Source: Anaerolineae bacterium
Lineage (GTDB): Bacteria > Chloroflexota > Anaerolineae > Promineifilales > Promineifilaceae
DNA length: 64,000 nucleotides
Assembly (NCBI GenBank): GCA_023954475.1
Contig: JAMLHW010000002.1
Location: 124,001-188,000 of the forward strand
Direction: 5' to 3'
Below, one piece after another: positions 10,964-19,485 of the stretch. A program made the translations under genes and the position numbers. The first letter of the stretch is position 1. Each line of letters begins with the position of its first letter. The notes below the pieces were generated by a model, which saw only the letters and a list, made by a program, of their open reading frames with translations, searched no databases and was not told where the DNA came from.

Positions 10964-12196
10964 TTAGCCGCAGCCACCGCTTGTAGGTGCCCGTTTCGTT
11001 TCTAGTTTTACTTTTGGTATGAATTCCAGTTCATACTGATGGGGATCCGGTTCAGCGACTGTGTAGCGTGCACCTAGCGCAGCATCAAAAGCATAGATCA
11101 GCGTATCATTGCCCGGCGCGGTTGCGAGACGCTGGGCTTGCATATCTTCATCAGCAAACGTCGTCAACCAATTGTTGATACCACCTTCCAGTATGTAGAC
11201 ATTCGGCACGCTCTCGGCGACCAATGTCTTCCACGCTTCTGTTGCTGCCCCTTCATCATTACTCATCATCACAAAGACGGCATTGGCTGGTTCAAAGTGC
11301 AACGCCGGTACCATGTCAGGTACTTCGTCCAGCGGTACATTCTTTGCGTCTAAAATGTGAAACAAGTTGTAATCAGATTCTTCACGCACATCGATCATGT
11401 TGACGATTAGTGACCGATTGTGCAACAGGTCGAGCAGTTCGCCCGGATGAATTTGTACTTCGCGAGCTTCGAGTGCCGCTATTTTTTCGTCGGCAACGCC
11501 TGCCCAGCGATCTTCGGTCGTTGGTTGGCCGATAAAGAGGACGATAATGGCACCGGCGAATAGGGTAGCTGCAGCAGCATAACGCCACTTGGGCGCTGCG
11601 GGTGCATCTTTGTCCCCGTATATCCCTTCCAATTTCTCCGCGCCCCAGAACATGAACAGCGCCATCGCGACGACACCGACGACGACGACACCGGTAGGTA
11701 GGCCAAACAGTTCTGGCAAGGTGAAGCGGCCCATGTAGGATGAGTTGAAGAATTGGTCAAAACTGCCGACTGTTTCACCGAATAGAAAAATACCGAAAAT
11801 CACGCCAAAGACGAAGAAAATGCCGTCCAGTTTTGCGGTTGCGGCGGCGACGAGCGATGTGCCCGGACAAAAGCCTCCGACAATGAATCCCACACCCATA
11901 ATCAAGCCCCCGATAATGCCTGGCCATAGGTAGGTTGGGTTGACCCAGATGAGGTTGTAATCGAGCAAGCCCATTGCCGACGCCGCAAAAATCAAAACCA
12001 TGGCGACGACGATGGCGCTGAACATAACCTTGAGAACAGTCATGTCTTTGAAATAAAACTGGGCAGCCAGCTTTTTTGAGTTGCCGAAACCGGCAATTTC
12101 GAGGACGTAGCCAAAGCTGAAGCCGATAATCAAATAGATGATATATGAGCCGTAATGGCCGAGTAAATCAGTGAGTGGTAATGGAAAGGGAGGCAT
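10964..12196 (-). CDS. YeeE/YedE-family sulfur-compound transporter fused to rhodanese-like domain
   Basis: About 410 residues. Residues 1-240 form a multi-helix YeeE/YedE (sulfur transport, TsuA-like) domain with the signature GGFCPGTSLVAA near 106, whose cysteine is expected to handle thiosulfate or a related species. Residues about 250-350 are a rhodanese-like domain (NMIDVREESDYNLFHILDAKNVPL...YILEGGINNWL). Its active-site loop reads VFVMMSNDEGAA, with no catalytic Cys, so sulfurtransferase activity is unlikely and binding is more probable (inference). The C-terminus ends CG. It is the last gene of the arsR-led operon, 67 nt after the second transporter. AGAG upstream supports the ATG at 12196. 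No TCGGCCGA copy lies inside it. Confidence 0.87.
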   Translation of the reverse strand: MPPFPLPLTDLLGHYGSYIIYLIIGFSFGYVLEIAGFGNSKKLAAQFYFKDMTVLKVMFSAIVVAMVLIFAASAMGLLDYNLIWVNPTYLWPGIIGGLIMGVGFIVGGFCPGTSLVAAATAKLDGIFFVFGVIFGIFLFGETVGSFDQFFNSSYMGRFTLPELFGLPTGVVVVGVVAMALFMFWGAEKLEGIYGDKDAPAAPKWRYAAAATLFAGAIIVLFIGQPTTEDRWAGVADEKIAALEAREVQIHPGELLDLLHNRSLIVNMIDVREESDYNLFHILDAKNVPLDEVPDMVPALHFEPANAVFVMMSNDEGAATEAWKTLVAESVPNVYILEGGINNWLTTFADEDMQAQRLATAPGNDTLIYAFDAALGARYTVAEPDPHQYELEFIPKVKLETKRAPTSGGCG

Positions 12197-12263
12197 AGTC
12201 AACTCTTTTTGTAGTGCAGACAGTTATCTGCGGCTAAACAGGCGAGCAGCCTGTTCTACAGGA

Positions 12264-12833
12264 TTAGTTCCACAATCTCCGCACAAAGTAGGCGAGGGCA
12301 TAAGCACCGGCAAAGACTGCGAACATAAACGCCCAGCTTCCGACAGACAATACTGCGCCTCCGGAAAGTGCTTGTCCTGATGTGCAGCCACGTGCCATGC
12401 GTGCGCCAAATCCCATAAAGCCGCCGCCGATAAATGCAAACAGCCAACGCGAACGCACTGTCATACGGGGCCCGCGATTCGTCTCGAATTTGACGCGTCC
12501 ATTGATAAAGCCCGATACCAAACCGCCCAATACCGTACCGATGGTGAGAATGACGATCCAGCTATCGAGTGCGTTTTTGTCGCCGCCGGCCATTGCAATC
12601 AGATAGCTAACTCGGTCGATATGCCCCGGCGCGATGATGTCCTCAAAGAATACGAGGATGCGATTGAGTCCCCCGGACGCGCCGAGGCCGTTACCGGTCA
12701 CAAAAAACGCGCCGAATAAGACGATGCCCAGCAGGATGCCTGCCAAATACGGATTAACATAATCTTTGGCGACGCGTTTACTGCGAACAACTTTGCCTTC
12801 AAGTTTGTCAGGATTTTGTGTGTAAGTAGTCAT
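12264..12833 (-). CDS. YeeE/YedE-family sulfur-compound transporter, small subunit
   Basis: 189 residues with about four to five membrane helices. It has the family motif FMGFGARMARGCTSGQALSGGAVLSVGSW, with a single conserved Cys in RGCTSG, and an upstream NPYLAGILLGIVLFGAFFVTGNGLGASGG helix. In many bacteria one long YeeE/YedE protein does this work; here two separate proteins are encoded in tandem, which probably form the two halves of one channel for thiosulfate or another reduced sulfur compound (inference). It lies 35 nt after the heptaheme cytochrome gene and 67 nt before the rhodanese-fused paralogue. No TCGGCCGA copy is inside. Confidence 0.87.
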   Translation of the reverse strand: MTTYTQNPDKLEGKVVRSKRVAKDYVNPYLAGILLGIVLFGAFFVTGNGLGASGGLNRILVFFEDIIAPGHIDRVSYLIAMAGGDKNALDSWIVILTIGTVLGGLVSGFINGRVKFETNRGPRMTVRSRWLFAFIGGGFMGFGARMARGCTSGQALSGGAVLSVGSWAFMFAVFAGAYALAYFVRRLWN

Positions 12834-12868
12834 ATCAGTAGTCGATAGTTGGATAGTTGGATTATCAG

Positions 12869-15619
12869 TTAGTCGGTGGCGGTTTGACCTTCAATGGTCT
12901 CTTCAGTGCCTTCAACTTCTTCCCAGCCCCCGATCATTGCCTTGAGATTGGCGGTTGGGGTAGGGCCGGTGGTGGTGAGGTATATGTGCATGACGATGAA
13001 CGTTGCCAATAACCATGAGATCAGCGTGTGCACCGGTGCCAGGATGGGCAGGCCACCTGCCATTGTGACGATGTCCGGCCACCGTTGCGCCCCCCACATC
13101 AGGATGCCAACGATGATTTGCAGCGGTAGCAGGATGTTGAGTAAACCGAAGTAAGTTGCCTGCTGCAGTGGGTTCATCTTGCGTTGACGCGTCTTTTCGT
13201 ATGGATGCGGTTCGCCTTTGAAAATGCCGTATAGATAGAAATGTGCTTGTTCGATAGCGCCGATGAAAAAGCCACGAGGTTGGGGCAAGAACTGCTTGAT
13301 TTCGCCGCTGGCGAGGTGGTAAAACAGGGCCAGGAATGCGTTGGCGACGAGCAGGAACGCTAAGATATTATGTACCTGGACTACGTACGGAAAACTGAAA
13401 ATGCCGAATTGTGCGGGTTTGTGGATGACCATGCCAGTGAACAGCAGGCCGAAGATGACTGCTGTTTGCAGCCAGTGCCACAGCCGTTCGTAAACACCGT
13501 ACATGTATTCTTCATGTGTTTCGGCCGAATGTCCATTCTCCACACCGTGCCGTCTCGCCATCAGGAAGCGCAGACTACCATGCACGGCGACACCGACCAC
13601 GGTGACGGCGAACAGCGCCGCACCCAGCCAATCGATCCACCACACGCTGTTGTGGCCCAGAATATAGAGACCGGGTTCGTCATCGGTGCCGTCTGTATTC
13701 GGCCGAAAATACAACGCGCCATCCTCACTTGAATAAATCTCGCCACCAGGAACAATATTGGTATCGCCAACAAATGTCGGCGTGACTCCGCCAGGCGTAT
13801 TACTGGATAGACGAATCGGCGTTGTGATGCGTGACTCGTCACTGTGACATGTTGCGCATTCGCGCACCGCAAAGTCACCATGCGTGACATTGTGGCTGAT
13901 GGTGTATGGTTGAATTTCACCGACAATGCGTGGGTTTTCCAGACCAAGTGCGGCGATGCGCGCGGCAATCACCGCCTCTTTTGCCTCATTGTCAATCAGC
14001 AGTTCACTTTCATCAATTTGGCCATCACCGTTGGCATCAAACGTCTCAATGATGTCGTCGTGATAAGTGTCGCCGTCTAGCCAGGCAGCTTCGAGATCGC
14101 GGTACGGAACCGGGCGCTCCGGATCACCATAAACCCAGTACCAGGCTGTAATCAGATTGTGCGGTGCCAATTTGCTCGTGCCGTCGCCGTTGTCGCGTGG
14201 CAGCAGCACCGGCTGGTAGCCGACGATCAGGTCACCTTCAATTCCACGACACTCAGTTGTCGGCGTGCTATCGGCCGAAAGCACCGTCCAGTCCAGCGTC
14301 TGTCGTGCCGGCGCACGCATATCGGGGATGTGGCAGGTTTCACACGCTATCGCATCGAAATGTTTTTCTGCATAAGGCAGCCAATCGTGTGACCCTTCGG
14401 CATCATGACACGATTCACAGCGCCGCAGTGTGTTATCCAGTTCCGGTGCCAACACACCTTGTGCACTGGCACCTTTCGCAAATTCATGCACCGGACGTTG
14501 CAGATATTCCCCGAAGTCGATCCGGCGCGGATCAAATTGCAAATGATCCGGCTGTGTCTCATCTCGCTCCTGGTAGTAAATAGGGTTGTTGAGCGAGTAG
14601 TGGCAATCTGTACAACCGACAACGCGCTCAGCGTGCACATCCCACGACCGGGACAAATCATCTTTGTCAGATAAATTCATGCCTGAGTTGGACAATTTCT
14701 GTGCAGATTGAATTTGCCCGGTCGTGATCGTGCTCCACTGAGTCGGTTCACAGCCTTCCAGGACAAGCGGTGTTTGCGAATCGGTATGTACCAGTCCGTG
14801 ACATTGGGCGCAATTTGTGTCGCTGGGATCACGGACGGTGACATAGTCGCTAAGCAATTTACCGTCGTCGCCAAACGCTGCTTCGTTCCACTGCCATTCA
14901 TCGCCGACACGCTCAATGATCCCCGTTCCCAGCAAGGTGGCGCTGTTGGCCCACCCGAATGCGCCAGATTGGAGCGCTTCGGTGCGGGCGTCGTTATTGG
15001 GCGTGTCGAGATGGCAAAGGAAGCAGTTCATTTCTACCGTGCCGGAGGCATCCCAGTCCCACGGGATGAGGTCTCCTGTTTGCGGATCGACGATGCTCGT
15101 TTCGAGATTTTCGGCCGAAACTGCCAGATCGCGCAGATCGACGCCGTATTGACTGGTTGTGGCCGGACCGCCGCCGACATGGCGCGGTCCGTAGACCATC
15201 AACCATTCCGCCGTCGTCAGGTCGATATGCTCATCCCCTTCGGCCGAAAGATAGCGATAGGTAAGGGGATTGAATCGGCCGAAAATCCCGTTGCTCACAT
15301 CCCAGTCGCGACCACTGCCGGTAGTTCCCGGCGCTGACAAGGAACTCAGGCCGGCGTCAGAATGAAAACTATGACTTTGAATAAATGCGGTGTCGTGGCA
15401 CGATCCGCAGGTTTGCATGGTCGAAACGGGATTGCCTGAGTCCAGTACGCTTGTGCCGTTTTCATCGAGCAGGGCAAAAGTCGGATGCAAAGGAGCTAGG
15501 GTGGGAGTAGCGGAAGATTGGGCTTCGGCCGAATCGGTATAGACCAATCCCAGCGCAGCCACCATCAGCAGCACACCCATGCCTGTCAAAACTGAATAGA
15601 GTAATTTTGATCTGTTCAT
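12869..15619 (-). CDS. Heptaheme cytochrome c fused to cytochrome-b561-like membrane domain
   Basis: About 916 residues. A signal peptide (MNRSKLL... to DSAEAQ) leads to an exported region with seven CxxCH haem sites (CGSCH near 69, CFLCH, CAQCH, CTDCH, CESCH, CETCH, CATCH near 586). A short DANGDGQIDESE calcium-loop-like stretch lies between haems. From about 630 onward there are five or so membrane helices of the di-haem cytochrome b561 / PhsC type (YERLWHWLQTAVIFGLLFTG, PVHTLISWLLATFIVMHIYL). The architecture suggests a quinol-oxidising membrane module joined to a periplasmic electron wire, feeding the octaheme enzyme encoded just upstream (inference). ATG 15619 is preferred to an upstream TTG because it gives a clean signal peptide. 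Confidence 0.88.
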   Translation of the reverse strand: MNRSKLLYSVLTGMGVLLMVAALGLVYTDSAEAQSSATPTLAPLHPTFALLDENGTSVLDSGNPVSTMQTCGSCHDTAFIQSHSFHSDAGLSSLSAPGTTGSGRDWDVSNGIFGRFNPLTYRYLSAEGDEHIDLTTAEWLMVYGPRHVGGGPATTSQYGVDLRDLAVSAENLETSIVDPQTGDLIPWDWDASGTVEMNCFLCHLDTPNNDARTEALQSGAFGWANSATLLGTGIIERVGDEWQWNEAAFGDDGKLLSDYVTVRDPSDTNCAQCHGLVHTDSQTPLVLEGCEPTQWSTITTGQIQSAQKLSNSGMNLSDKDDLSRSWDVHAERVVGCTDCHYSLNNPIYYQERDETQPDHLQFDPRRIDFGEYLQRPVHEFAKGASAQGVLAPELDNTLRRCESCHDAEGSHDWLPYAEKHFDAIACETCHIPDMRAPARQTLDWTVLSADSTPTTECRGIEGDLIVGYQPVLLPRDNGDGTSKLAPHNLITAWYWVYGDPERPVPYRDLEAAWLDGDTYHDDIIETFDANGDGQIDESELLIDNEAKEAVIAARIAALGLENPRIVGEIQPYTISHNVTHGDFAVRECATCHSDESRITTPIRLSSNTPGGVTPTFVGDTNIVPGGEIYSSEDGALYFRPNTDGTDDEPGLYILGHNSVWWIDWLGAALFAVTVVGVAVHGSLRFLMARRHGVENGHSAETHEEYMYGVYERLWHWLQTAVIFGLLFTGMVIHKPAQFGIFSFPYVVQVHNILAFLLVANAFLALFYHLASGEIKQFLPQPRGFFIGAIEQAHFYLYGIFKGEPHPYEKTRQRKMNPLQQATYFGLLNILLPLQIIVGILMWGAQRWPDIVTMAGGLPILAPVHTLISWLLATFIVMHIYLTTTGPTPTANLKAMIGGWEEVEGTEETIEGQTATD

Positions 15620-15663
15620 TGTTCGTTGAGCATCCGTGACTTGCAACTCGGATGCCGGCTTCG

Positions 15664-17106
15664 TTACTTGTTCAGCAACGCCTGTTGTTCACGACCACCC
15701 CACGTCAGAGGATCACCGTAATAACCCAATTCTTCCCAATTCATGCGCCCATTTTCACCGTGGCAATCGTCACATTGCAACGCACTCTCCTTAGGTGCAA
15801 CCATGTGAGACAGTGACCAGTACATTTCGGTGGGTGCAAAGCCATATTCGCCGCTGTACGCCATGCCGGTCGCTTCCGCACCGAGTCGTGCCGCTTGATC
15901 CCAGTCGAAATCTGTCCAGTATCCCCCTTCGCCGACAGTTTTGGGCTGTAACAGGTAGTTGTAAATGGCATCATAAATCTGATTGGCGCGATGTACCTTG
16001 AACGGCCAAAGTTTTGCCGTTTCGTCATCGATGCCACCGAGAGGCTCGTTTATCAGCGTCGATTGTGTCGGATCAATTTCGTCACCGAGTATGTAACGGT
16101 CAGCAGTGCCGTTGTACCAGGTGTACTCGGGCATAAAACCGCGTTCGTAGACAAAACTACCTTTGATCTTCAAGTATTCGTGAGGATCTTCTTCAATGTC
16201 CTGACCGGCGGTTGACCAGTCCCAGTGCATTTTCGTCGCATCACGTACAGCACCTTCCGGAATATGGCATGTCTGGCAGGCTACATTCTCAACATGTGCG
16301 TTGACGCGGGCATCCTCATGTAGACCTTCTTCATGGCAGTCTGTGCAAGCAACCTGGTTCTCATTATCGACGCTAACCGAAATTGCGCGTCCTTTGATAT
16401 TGTGATCGTCTGTTTGGTGACAGTCGACGCACAGGAAGTCGAAGCGACCCATGTGAACGTCAATCTCTTCATTAGGGTAATAAAGCGATTCATCCAGGTC
16501 ACCATGCTTGACTGCGTTGCCGCCGCCACCGTTAAAGTGACAACTTCCGCATTGCGCACGCGTTGGGGTACTCACACTTTGCGCCGCGGCTGCCAGATCA
16601 ACACCTTCAACCGGAATTCCAGCCAGTCCTTTGGTGTACGTAGCGGTGTCGGCGTGGCAGGCGAGGCAGTCAACCGCTTCTTTGTTGTCGAAGTCGAAGT
16701 TGGCGTCTTCCCAGCCATAGCCGATGTGGCAGCGTGTACAACCGGGTTCGTTGCCCTGTGTTCCGATGCAGAAGTTGTTGATCTGGTTGGCTTTACCTAT
16801 TTGGACGAGTTCGTCGCGGCCCGGCAGCTGTACTGGTTCGCTTTTCCATGTCCAGTGCGTGGTATGCATGACTTGATCAGCGGCATCTTCGTGGCACTCC
16901 AGGCAGGCTACAGTTACTTCCTGGCCTGTTTCATATGGGCCGGGCATCAGGTCTGCATGGCTGGTTGGTGGGACACGTATGGGAACGTTAGCCCATGGGT
17001 CATCGGTCGCACCTGCATTGGGTGTAATAAAAGCGACAATTGGTGCGACGATGAGAAATAATGTCCCAAATAATCCGATAAGCCAGGTATATTTGAAATC
17101 TTTCAT
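15664..17106 (-). CDS. otr: Octaheme c-type cytochrome, tetrathionate reductase (Otr) family
   Basis: 480 residues with an N-terminal signal anchor (about 8-30) and eight CxxCH sites: CLECH near 66, CTRCH, CLACH, CGSCH, CVDCH, CTDCH, CQTCH and CDDCH near 442. The stretch NNFCIGTQGNEPGCTRCH around the second haem is typical of the octaheme tetrathionate reductase family, as are MHWDWSTAG and WPFKVHRA. Shewanella OTR reduces tetrathionate, nitrite and hydroxylamine in vitro, and the physiological substrate is uncertain. The sulfur-transport neighbours argue for a sulfur compound. It lies 15 nt after arsR and 45 nt before the membrane cytochrome, so one transcript is likely. It contains no TCGGCCGA repeat at all. 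Confidence 0.9.
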   Translation of the reverse strand: MKDFKYTWLIGLFGTLFLIVAPIVAFITPNAGATDDPWANVPIRVPPTSHADLMPGPYETGQEVTVACLECHEDAADQVMHTTHWTWKSEPVQLPGRDELVQIGKANQINNFCIGTQGNEPGCTRCHIGYGWEDANFDFDNKEAVDCLACHADTATYTKGLAGIPVEGVDLAAAAQSVSTPTRAQCGSCHFNGGGGNAVKHGDLDESLYYPNEEIDVHMGRFDFLCVDCHQTDDHNIKGRAISVSVDNENQVACTDCHEEGLHEDARVNAHVENVACQTCHIPEGAVRDATKMHWDWSTAGQDIEEDPHEYLKIKGSFVYERGFMPEYTWYNGTADRYILGDEIDPTQSTLINEPLGGIDDETAKLWPFKVHRANQIYDAIYNYLLQPKTVGEGGYWTDFDWDQAARLGAEATGMAYSGEYGFAPTEMYWSLSHMVAPKESALQCDDCHGENGRMNWEELGYYGDPLTWGGREQQALLNK

Positions 17107-17121
17107 GGTATCCCAGTATTC

Positions 17122-17451
17122 TTACATGATGTTGAGCACGTTTGATTGGCGTGACAAGGAATCGCGCAGGATTTTGCGCATTGTTTCCAACACCGCGATC
17201 ATGCGTTCGTCAGTCAGGCGATAGACGACGGCTGCGCCGTTGCGCTCGGTTGTGACCAATGCACGCTGTCGCAAGACGCGTAAATGGCGCGAGATCGTTG
17301 GCTGTGGCGTGTCGAGGTAGTCCGCTAATGCGGTGACATGCAGCGGTTGCTCATACAGCGCGTACAAAATCTGGATGCGTTTGGGGTCGCCAAGAGCCTG
17401 ACAGATGTTGGCGTGCAGCAGGCTGAGTTCGTCGAGTGTGGGTGCAGTCAT
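17122..17451 (-). CDS. ArsR/SmtB-family transcriptional regulator
   Basis: 109 residues forming one winged-helix DNA-binding domain: ICQALGDPKRIQILYALYEQPLHVTALADYLDTPQPTISRHLRVLRQRALV, then the wing TTERNGAAVVYRL. ArsR-family repressors usually release DNA on binding a metal or on thiol modification. Here only one cysteine (in NICQALG) is present, so the two-cysteine persulfide switch of BigR/SqrR is not obvious and the signal is unknown. It is the first gene of the multihaem/sulfur-transport operon. A perfect inverted repeat that overlaps the predicted promoter lies 16 nt upstream of its ATG, as expected for autoregulation. Confidence 0.92.
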   Translation of the reverse strand: MTAPTLDELSLLHANICQALGDPKRIQILYALYEQPLHVTALADYLDTPQPTISRHLRVLRQRALVTTERNGAAVVYRLTDERMIAVLETMRKILRDSLSRQSNVLNIM

Positions 17452-17466
17452 AATGTTTACCTATCC

Positions 17467-17513
17467 ATGTATTCGTTTATCCGAATACATCAACGGAAGT
17501 ATACGACTGTCAA
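17467..17513 (-). promoter_or_regulatory. Promoter and operator of the arsR-otr-YeeE operon
   Basis: A perfect 9-bp inverted repeat ATGTATTCG-N6-CGAATACAT occupies 17467-17490. On the minus strand a consensus TTGACA (17513-17508) is followed after 18 nt by TGTATT (17489-17484), which lies inside the inverted repeat. A repressor bound there would block the -10 region. Size and symmetry fit ArsR-family operators, which often contain ATTCG-like half sites. The ATG of arsR is 16 nt further on. Confidence 0.75.
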
Positions 17514-17543
17514 TTTTGGTGGAATAATGACAAATAGCATGTT

Positions 17544-17601
17544 TGTCATATGACATTCGACATGTCCGCGCCTGTCATATGATCCGTGTGTATAACATGT
17601 T
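17544..17601 (+). promoter_or_regulatory. Palindrome pair and -10 box upstream of the vWA-FHA gene
   Basis: A perfect 12-bp palindrome TGTCATATGACA (17544-17555) and a partial copy TGTCATATGATC (17573-17584) lie 29 bp apart in the same orientation. GACATGTC (17559-17566) sits between them and AACATGTT (17594-17601) follows. A -10-like TATAAC is at 17591-17596 without a clear -35. The arrangement suggests a regulator that binds as tandem dimers, but which one is unknown. The region is shared with the divergent arsR operon. Confidence 0.45.
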
Positions 17602-17643
17602 ACTTTTCGCCAGATCGGAATAAACCAACTACAATTCGGCCGA

Positions 17644-19485
17644 ATGTTACGGTTCAGCAAACTCCTCCCCCTTTTTCTCCTCCTCATGTGGCTGATACCT
17701 GTCATGGCGCAGGAATCGGTGACCGATCTGGAAATTGTAGCGGCCGATACTGCTACCTTTCCCATCATCACCCTCCAGCTTAGCGCCCGTGATGCCGCAG
17801 GCAACGCCCTGACCGACCTCGATGGTTTGCAGCTCACCGAAGGCGGACGCCCGGTGGAGACATTCGAGATTGGGACACAGACGAAAGGGATTGATGTCAT
17901 CTTTGTCATCGACGCCAACGACGAGATTGACAGTATTGATCTGATCGGCGATGTCTCGCGCCTTGCCAAAGTGCGCATCGCGATTGCCAACTTCGCGAAT
18001 CAGCAAATGAGCCGTGCCGATCAGGATCGCATCTCGATTATCGTGCCTGATGATGCCGGCGCTCGCTATCTGATCGAGGATGGCACGTCTCCAGCCGATG
18101 TGACCGATGCCATTGGCGCGTATACGCCGGATGAATTTCCGGAGAGTACGCCGCTGCAAGCGATGCTGCAAACGGCGCTCGATCAGGCGGCAGCACGCGA
18201 ACCCGGTGGCAAGTACCAGGCAATTGTGCTGTTTACTGACGGCGGACAATTGGCTGACCAACTCGATTATGACACCTTGTTGGCTTCGGCCGAAAGCAGT
18301 CAAGCCGTCATTTTCAGCGCCATTCTCGGCAGTATTGCCAGCGATAGCGAAGTTGCCAACGTCACTAATTTGACCGCGCCTACGGGCGGCACCTATGCTC
18401 ACATGCCGCGTACAGACCGCCTGGATCCGCTGTTTGCCGCAATTGCGAGTAATAGCGTTGTCAATACCGTGCGCTATCGCTCACGAATTGCTGGTGATGG
18501 TGATCGCACACTTGAATTGATGTTAGGCGAAGTCTCGGCGGCCTATCCTGTTGCTGTCACAGTTTTGCCCCCGGTCGTTGACTTGAGTGAGACGGATGAG
18601 CCGTTGATTATCGCTGATAGCAGTTCGGCCGACAGTGATCCAACCCGCATCACCGCCAGGGTAAACTGGCCGGATGGCTATGTCCGTTCTTTGTTGTCGG
18701 TCAAGCTGTTTGTCGATGACGTGGAGCAAACCGTAACGCGTCCGCCGGTGCTTGATCCGCTGGGTAAGTTGACTTTGGATTGGGATGCGACCGGCATCAC
18801 GCCGGGCAGCCATACACTGGCAGTTGAACTGACAGACGAACTCGGTTTGAGTACGCGTAGTGAATCGGCCGAACGCACAATACAAGTTGGCCCTGTCGTG
18901 ACCGTTATCCCGCCGACCGCAACGCCTGAGCCGCTGCCGACCGCAACGCCGACGCCGTTGGAAATCGGGTTGACTGCATTGCAGGATAATCGCACACAGC
19001 GCAACATACGCATTGGACTGTTTATCATTGCCGTGCCGCTGCTGCTCATCGTGTTGTGGCGCTGGCGTAAGCGCCGTACCGCTACTGATAGCGAAAGCGC
19101 ACCGAGTACACCTGCTGTTATTGAGACGTCGCCGACGACGCCTGCACCGGACGCTGCTGCGACGACAACGTTTGTTTATTTTGAACCAATCCGCAATGCT
19201 GATGACTATGACGGGCCGATAGCCATTACGCGCGAGTTGACCACAATCGGCCGCGATCGACGCTATGCCACGCTCGTATTTGATAACGAAACGGTGGGAC
19301 GCTATCATGCCCGTCTACTGTTCAGTGGCGGCCAATTCCTACTCTACGACGAAGGTACACCTAACGGCACAGTGGTCAACGGTCAGCGTATTGCACTGGA
19401 ACCCTGCACCCTGCAAGACGGCGATCTGGTGCAACTGGGTCGCGTGCGACTCCGCTTTCGCATTGAGACACGGCAGGACACTTAG
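17644..19485 (+). CDS. Secreted/membrane protein with vWA domain and cytoplasmic FHA domain
   Basis: 613 residues. Signal peptide 1-22 (ending PVMAQ), a von Willebrand factor A domain at about 60-260, an Ig-like region, a Pro/Thr linker (TATPEPLPTATPTP), one membrane helix near 457-475 (IGLFIIAVPLLLIVLWRW), an Arg/Lys stop-transfer segment, and a C-terminal FHA domain (TIGRDRRYATLVF, TVGRYHARL, NGTVVNGQRI). The MIDAS motif reads DANDE rather than DxSxS, so metal-dependent adhesion through it is doubtful. FHA domains bind phosphothreonine, so the protein could link an outside sensor to inside kinase signalling (inference). A TCGGCCGA copy directly abuts the ATG. The HAD gene follows after 3 nt. 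Confidence 0.8.
   Translation: MLRFSKLLPLFLLLMWLIPVMAQESVTDLEIVAADTATFPIITLQLSARDAAGNALTDLDGLQLTEGGRPVETFEIGTQTKGIDVIFVIDANDEIDSIDLIGDVSRLAKVRIAIANFANQQMSRADQDRISIIVPDDAGARYLIEDGTSPADVTDAIGAYTPDEFPESTPLQAMLQTALDQAAAREPGGKYQAIVLFTDGGQLADQLDYDTLLASAESSQAVIFSAILGSIASDSEVANVTNLTAPTGGTYAHMPRTDRLDPLFAAIASNSVVNTVRYRSRIAGDGDRTLELMLGEVSAAYPVAVTVLPPVVDLSETDEPLIIADSSSADSDPTRITARVNWPDGYVRSLLSVKLFVDDVEQTVTRPPVLDPLGKLTLDWDATGITPGSHTLAVELTDELGLSTRSESAERTIQVGPVVTVIPPTATPEPLPTATPTPLEIGLTALQDNRTQRNIRIGLFIIAVPLLLIVLWRWRKRRTATDSESAPSTPAVIETSPTTPAPDAAATTTFVYFEPIRNADDYDGPIAITRELTTIGRDRRYATLVFDNETVGRYHARLLFSGGQFLLYDEGTPNGTVVNGQRIALEPCTLQDGDLVQLGRVRLRFRIETRQDT

Follow-up and report, generated by a model that had tools for sequence, protein, structure and literature searches.

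The natural substrate of the octahaem cytochromes of the Otr type is unsettled between sulfur and nitrogen compounds. The Shewanella Otr also reduces nitrite and hydroxylamine (Atkinson 2007, as cited in PMC11237559), and in Acidobacteriota the otr transcripts were increased 36-fold with tetrathionate, an acceptor with a potential of +198 mV (PMC8528874). On the transport side, TsuA/YeeE contains a relay of cysteines ordered, from outside to inside, as Cys293, Cys91 and Cys22 (PMC11073785), and PmpB and PmpA, which correspond respectively to the N-terminal and C-terminal halves of such a protein, have been proposed to assemble as a heterodimer into a single transporter (PMC11582611). In SoxY, sulfur intermediates are bound to a cysteine within a C-terminal GGCGG (PMC6067878), in a tail called a peptide swinging arm in that article with reference to Sauve 2007. 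Here, an operon in which relatives of these elements are found together was analyzed in a stretch of 64,000 nucleotides from an Anaerolineae bacterium (Chloroflexota; assembly GCA_023954475.1, contig JAMLHW010000002.1), referred to below as the window. It consists of five open frames, all on the minus strand from 17451 to 10964, at the positions reported in the initial annotation of this DNA. The co-directional set and its gaps of 15, 44, 35 and 67 nucleotides hold if ATG 15619 is taken as the start of the heptahaem gene and ATG 12196 as that of the last gene. The families assigned there, ArsR, octahaem Otr, heptahaem protein with membrane cytochrome b and two YeeE/YedE proteins, were upheld by profile searches.

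The Otr protein was scanned against genome contigs and 33 loci were obtained. In 25 of them, distributed in five phyla (Chloroflexota, KSB1, Planctomycetota, Gemmatimonadota and Ignavibacteriota), the Otr gene adjoins YeeE genes, and the order Otr, cytochrome b, YeeE C-terminal half, YeeE N-terminal half with rhodanese is conserved wherever the length of the contig allows it to be followed. The heptahaem part is fused to cytochrome b in all YeeE-linked loci except the one of Ignavibacteriota. Among 301 genomes of the phylum of the window, 12 contain a protein above the cut-off of the Otr model, and exactly the same 12 contain the fifth protein in full (score of at least 490 bits); in each of these carriers, both genes share a contig and are no more than about 5 kb apart. 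The hypergeometric value for this coincidence is 1e-21; as it ignores the relatedness of the genomes it overstates their independence, but the strict pairing is still clear. Since the arrangement recurs across phyla and the genomes with Otr and with the fifth gene coincide, it is not due to chance. These results support the view that the cytochromes and the sulfur importer form one conserved unit, in agreement with the initial annotation, in which a search for synteny in other genomes had been set as one of the tests. The operon probably encodes a coupled module for sulfur redox chemistry and sulfur import.

In the tree of the Otr proteins, those linked to YeeE form one clade (support 100/98), the Ignavibacteriota one excepted, and the Shewanella Otr and two desulfobacterial Otr proteins without YeeE neighbours fall outside it. 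One member of the clade (L020) is encoded at a contig end where its neighbours are not visible. Partial matches to a YeeE half were also seen without the full protein at G248:C33:13582-14115 and G224:C10:18501-19025, one of them with an internal TGA. At the locus of a Bacteroidales relative (L022:6494-7825), the cytochrome b adjacent to Otr carries two PAS domains in the same polypeptide; a gene of the flavin disulphide-reductase type (sulfide:quinone reductase-like) and a cytochrome bd gene come next, and no YeeE gene was seen there.

The second gene of the operon (15664..17106, minus strand) encodes a member of the Otr family, with 563 bits for TIGR04315 (octaheme_Shew; cut-off 375) and 503 bits to the Shewanella Otr (PDB 1SP3). 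It contains eight CxxCH haem sites, and the equivalents of Asn61, Cys64 and the haem-ligand Lys153 of 1SP3 are invariant in the 33 Otr sequences. The third gene (12869..15619, minus strand, in a frame which stays open to TTG 15646) encodes seven CxxCH motifs followed by a Ni_hydr_CYTB domain (2.6e-24). This cytochrome b is closest to PhsC (1e-40) and remains below the cut-off of that family (139.9 bits for 204). As a membrane cytochrome b of the quinone type, it supports the quinone link which had been attributed to these cytochromes. The heptahaem part and Otr are distantly related (hhalign, 97%), and this profile comparison is better evidence for their kinship than the fold match, which is of little weight as the structure model is of low confidence (mean pLDDT 56; best match 1SP3, E 0.0075). 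In the Ignavibacteriota locus the heptahaem part is missing, the Otr protein ends in a membrane helix and a stand-alone cytochrome b is encoded next to it. Because it is related to Otr and absent in Ignavibacteriota, the heptahaem part is best read as a probable electron relay connecting Otr with cytochrome b.

Each of the two YeeE proteins covers a different half of the Sulf_transp profile (310 positions): 168-309 for the product of the fourth gene (12264..12833, minus strand) and 9-184 for that of the last gene (10964..12196, minus strand). They are thus two half-transporters, the PmpA-like C-terminal and the PmpB-like N-terminal half of one YeeE, and not the two separate transporters initially described, although the family assignment stands. 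The frame of the last gene is open to TTG 12202, from which the residues of its protein are numbered here, and most orthologues begin at the point of ATG 12196. Each half possesses one invariant channel cysteine: Cys112 of the N-terminal half aligns with TsuA Cys91 (24 of 24 sequences) and Cys150 of the C-terminal half with TsuA Cys293 (25 of 25). Both proteins score far below the NCBIfam cut-off for TsuA (18.5 and 37.2 for 400 bits).

Two features of the last protein had been overlooked in the initial annotation: a rhodanese-like domain (PF00581, 1.4e-11), which follows an extra membrane helix, and a C-terminal GGCG. The best fold matches of the domain are rhodaneses, but its active-site loop is devoid of cysteine in all 22 sequences which cover this loop. 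The C-terminal GGC is found in 20 of 20 aligned sequences, and every complete protein has it, nearly always as GGCG. The only cysteines of the protein, Cys112 and Cys411, are both invariant (Cys411 in 21 of 21 sequences), and AlphaFold models the tail as disordered, with a pLDDT of about 27 at its end. The last protein therefore possesses the glycine-flanked C-terminal cysteine that is typical of the SoxY carrier. The Pfam scan revealed only Sulf_transp, Rhodanese and a weak DUF6691 in it, and the SoxY domain PF13501 was not found. As the domain is a rhodanese and not a SoxY, the likeness of the tails is functional and does not point to a common ancestry. Six helices are predicted in this protein, with positive loops alternating to the inside; the rhodanese domain, preceded by an inside loop and the sixth and last helix, is thus placed outside. 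At L030, a Gemmatimonadota locus, a gene of its own encodes the rhodanese-GGGCG part, whose N-terminus is hydrophobic and signal-like. These two agreeing predictions, from topology and from the L030 protein, strongly suggest that the arm lies outside the cytoplasmic membrane, where it would rather likely act as a sulfur carrier.

The first gene (17122..17451, minus strand) encodes a regulator of the ArsR/SmtB family (HTH_5, 5.6e-14; NF033788 above cut-off) whose single cysteine, Cys17, is invariant in 18 of 18 homologues. It does not belong to the BigR/SqrR type (50 for 155 bits), of which it lacks the cysteine pair, nor to TsoR (NF045707, 61.7 for 115 bits). About 15 nucleotides before its start codon, a perfect operator-like inverted repeat, ATGTATTCG-N6-CGAATACAT (17467..17490, minus strand), was also overlooked initially. 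This repeat is flanked by a -10-like TATACT (17503-17498) on one side and by the regulator gene on the other. In 11 related loci, the core TATTCG-N6-CGAATA is found without any mismatch in the equivalent position before the regulator gene. The site has one match in the window for 0.05 expected, and the sole other exact core in the genome lies within a gene. As no other exact core is found outside genes in this genome, the ArsR protein looks like a dedicated local repressor, and it is plausible that it senses a sulfur species. A wider regulon was also considered and rejected: in this genome and 13 others, the other exact or near matches to the operator pattern are inside genes or far from sulfur genes. 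A palindrome scan of the upstream regions highlighted a second inverted repeat, ATGACAAATAGCATGTTTGTCAT (17527..17549, no strand assigned). Several relatives (for example L001, L002, L004 and L005) carry repeats of the TTGTGACAAATGTCACAA type near the equivalent position, upstream of the operator. Repeats of the ATGACAAATAGCATGTTTGTCAT or TTGTGACAAATGTCACAA type are a candidate site for another regulator and resemble a site of the CRP/FNR family.

What can be read directly in the sequences is the gene set and its co-conservation, the half-transporters, the invariant cysteines, the lost rhodanese cysteine and the conserved palindrome. From these elements the following scheme is proposed. Outside the cytoplasmic membrane, Otr would act on an oxidised or S-S bonded sulfur species, for which tetrathionate or a similar polythionate is the likeliest candidate. 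The electrons would come from quinol via the PhsC-type cytochrome b and then the heptahaem relay. The cysteine in the GGCG tail, swinging on the extracytoplasmic rhodanese scaffold, would receive the product, thiosulfate or sulfane sulfur. The sulfur would then pass from the arm to Cys150 (TsuA Cys293 position) and to Cys112 (TsuA Cys91 position) into the cytoplasm, through a channel made by both YeeE halves together. ArsR would repress the operon by binding to ATGTATTCG-N6-CGAATACAT and would be released when Cys17 or another site meets the imported sulfur species. Enzyme, arm and channel would thus be physically coupled. The reduction of a tetrathionate-like species is favoured for three reasons: the Otr that has been characterised works as a reductase, tetrathionate raised the otr transcripts in Acidobacteriota, and the active-site residues are kept. 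For the direction of the electron flow, the balance leans slightly, if at all, to the reductive one. The complete scheme, with reductive processing by Otr, transfer to the arm, import by the split channel and repression by ArsR, is held tentatively and falls somewhat short of an even chance. Assimilation of the product after import, as initially suggested, may occur, given that searches for a siroheme sulfite reductase-type protein gave nothing in 11 of the 12 carriers, nor in the genome of the window.

Several observations weigh against this scheme. The position of TsuA Cys22 is occupied here by a residue other than cysteine, so that the three-cysteine set of TsuA is incomplete, and the structure model is of low quality in its membrane part. 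No TusA-type acceptor was detectable in the genome of the window. The founding activity of Otr is not specific for sulfur, as nitrite and hydroxylamine are substrates of the Shewanella enzyme too. SoxY, of which the GGC tail is reminiscent, belongs to an oxidative pathway, and the genome of the window encodes haem-copper oxidases and, beside DsrC-like and DsrE2-like genes, a type III sulfide:quinone reductase, all of which would suit the oxidation of sulfur.

A serious rival explanation, which we nevertheless regard as unlikely, indeed uses the same components for oxidation. The GGCG cysteine would be oxidatively charged by Otr with sulfide or thiosulfate, in the way SoxXA charges SoxY, the electrons would reach quinone via the heptahaem part and cytochrome b, and the sulfane sulfur would be imported for further oxidation. 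The SoxY-like tail of the last protein is compatible with such a role, as is the example of the YeeE-like SoxT which, with ArsR repressors, imports sulfur for oxidation and signalling (PMC11582611). Part of the genome contents would also suit this role. On contig C20 of the genome of the window (L078:6240-10060), one operon encodes a PocR/HTH regulator, the type III sulfide:quinone reductase (NF049943, 641 bits for a cut-off of 525), a DUF1641 protein and DsrC/TusE-like and DsrE2-like proteins. In two relatives (L014:1482-4647 and L079:5683-8782), a paralogous ArsR which has kept the single cysteine heads an operon for sulfide:quinone reductase-like (type III-like), DUF1641-like and DsrE2-like proteins, located in L014 directly upstream of the Otr operon; these operons add to the sulfur context. 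The possibility that the C20 operon belongs to the regulon of the window ArsR was rejected, since its regulator is of the PocR type and the palindrome is lacking there. Terminal oxidases were found in 10 of the 12 carriers; with oxidases and molybdenum enzymes both present, the genome contents favour neither direction of electron flow. Against oxidation, the known reactions of Otr are reductions, and its gene responds to tetrathionate in Acidobacteriota. The lack of a detectable siroheme sulfite reductase-type protein in 11 of the 12 carriers leaves no reverse Dsr route in these, sHdr having not been searched for. The oxidation of thiosulfate with menaquinone is, moreover, energetically poor.

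The cytochromes could also serve the detoxification or the ammonification of nitrite or hydroxylamine and be encoded together with a sulfur importer because a common regulation is convenient. This would agree with the activities of the Shewanella Otr cited above and with the identity of the active-site residues between the two proteins. However, the operon contains no gene of nitrogen metabolism, and all 12 family-level Otr genes of the sampled phylum are tied to the half-transporter with the rhodanese arm, the same set being found in other phyla. The strict pairing with a sulfur channel weakens the nitrogen explanation, which we consider improbable. Selenium compounds are a very improbable substrate: YedE proteins can be selenium transporters and selenocysteine-containing Otr and YeeE (GUxSG) relatives have been listed (PMC13188914), but both window proteins score far under the selenium-transporter YedE models (23.5 for 200 and 34.2 for 350 bits), and selenocysteine in place of cysteine is uninformative on the substrate.

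Unrelated to the operon, the palindrome TCGGCCGA occurs in 113 copies in the window (for example at 953-962 and 17635-17644) for 1.55 expected from shuffles, and TTCGGCCGAA in 53 copies for 0.07 expected. TCGGCCGA is by far the commonest palindromic 8-mer of the window, the next one having 6 copies. The window contains 1.8 copies per kb and a further contig of this genome (L078) 1.4, and seven related loci have none or hardly any. TCGGCCGA is similar to HIP1, the highly iterated palindrome of cyanobacteria.

Returning to the coupled sulfur module, its individual pieces are known from Otr, PmpAB, SoxT with ArsR repressors and the YTD clusters. No description of the gene set, of the fused arm or of the strict Otr-YeeE linkage was found in the open-licence literature. 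The linkage of Otr to a sulfur channel across phyla argues for a sulfur substrate in the YeeE-linked Otr clade, which could be checked with one operon. The fusion of the cysteine arm to a channel points to a physical coupling of import with sulfur redox chemistry outside the membrane; the Chloroflexota concerned gave no match for SoxY, and nearly all the carriers searched yielded no sulfite reductase. A bolder proposal is a new membrane machine, in which an extracytoplasmic multihaem enzyme would load or unload sulfur on the covalent cysteine arm of an importer, chemistry and import being channelled. There, the rhodanese fold would have been turned from an enzyme into a scaffold, with its cysteine relocated to the swinging tail. 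This proposal is possible, with the balance of probability tilted against it; if true, it would give a physiological role to a large Otr clade.

Compared with the known systems, the window locus combines shared and distinct features. As in the thiosulfate reductase PhsABC, the cytochrome b is related to PhsC, but the catalytic part is a multihaem cytochrome instead of a molybdenum enzyme. The Otr protein shares with that of Shewanella the family, eight haems and the equivalents of Lys153, Asn61 and Cys64. It differs by its own clade, by an N-terminal hydrophobic anchor or signal and by its association with a PhsC-type cytochrome b and a sulfur channel, neither of which was seen beside the desulfobacterial Otr genes examined. 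The YTD clusters (YedE, TusA, DsrE2) of sulfur-disproportionating bacteria similarly associate YeeE/YedE with sulfur-relay proteins (PMC8528874), whereas this operon, with its octahaem enzyme and cytochrome b, has neither TusA nor DsrE2 and is not a YTD cluster. With SoxYZ and SoxT under SoxR/sHdrR, the locus has in common an extracytoplasmic C-terminal GGC cysteine, a YeeE-like importer and an ArsR repressor. Here, by contrast, arm and transporter form one polypeptide, the regulator is without the paired-cysteine pattern and no SoxY homologue was found in 17 genomes, that of the window included, in a search without positive control. The closest parallel for the channel is PmpA/PmpB, with one protein per YeeE half and a single conserved cysteine in each, at the positions of TsuA Cys91 and Cys293 (PMC11582611); to this pattern the PmpB-like half of the window adds helices, a rhodanese domain and the GGCG tail, and its partner is a multihaem enzyme.

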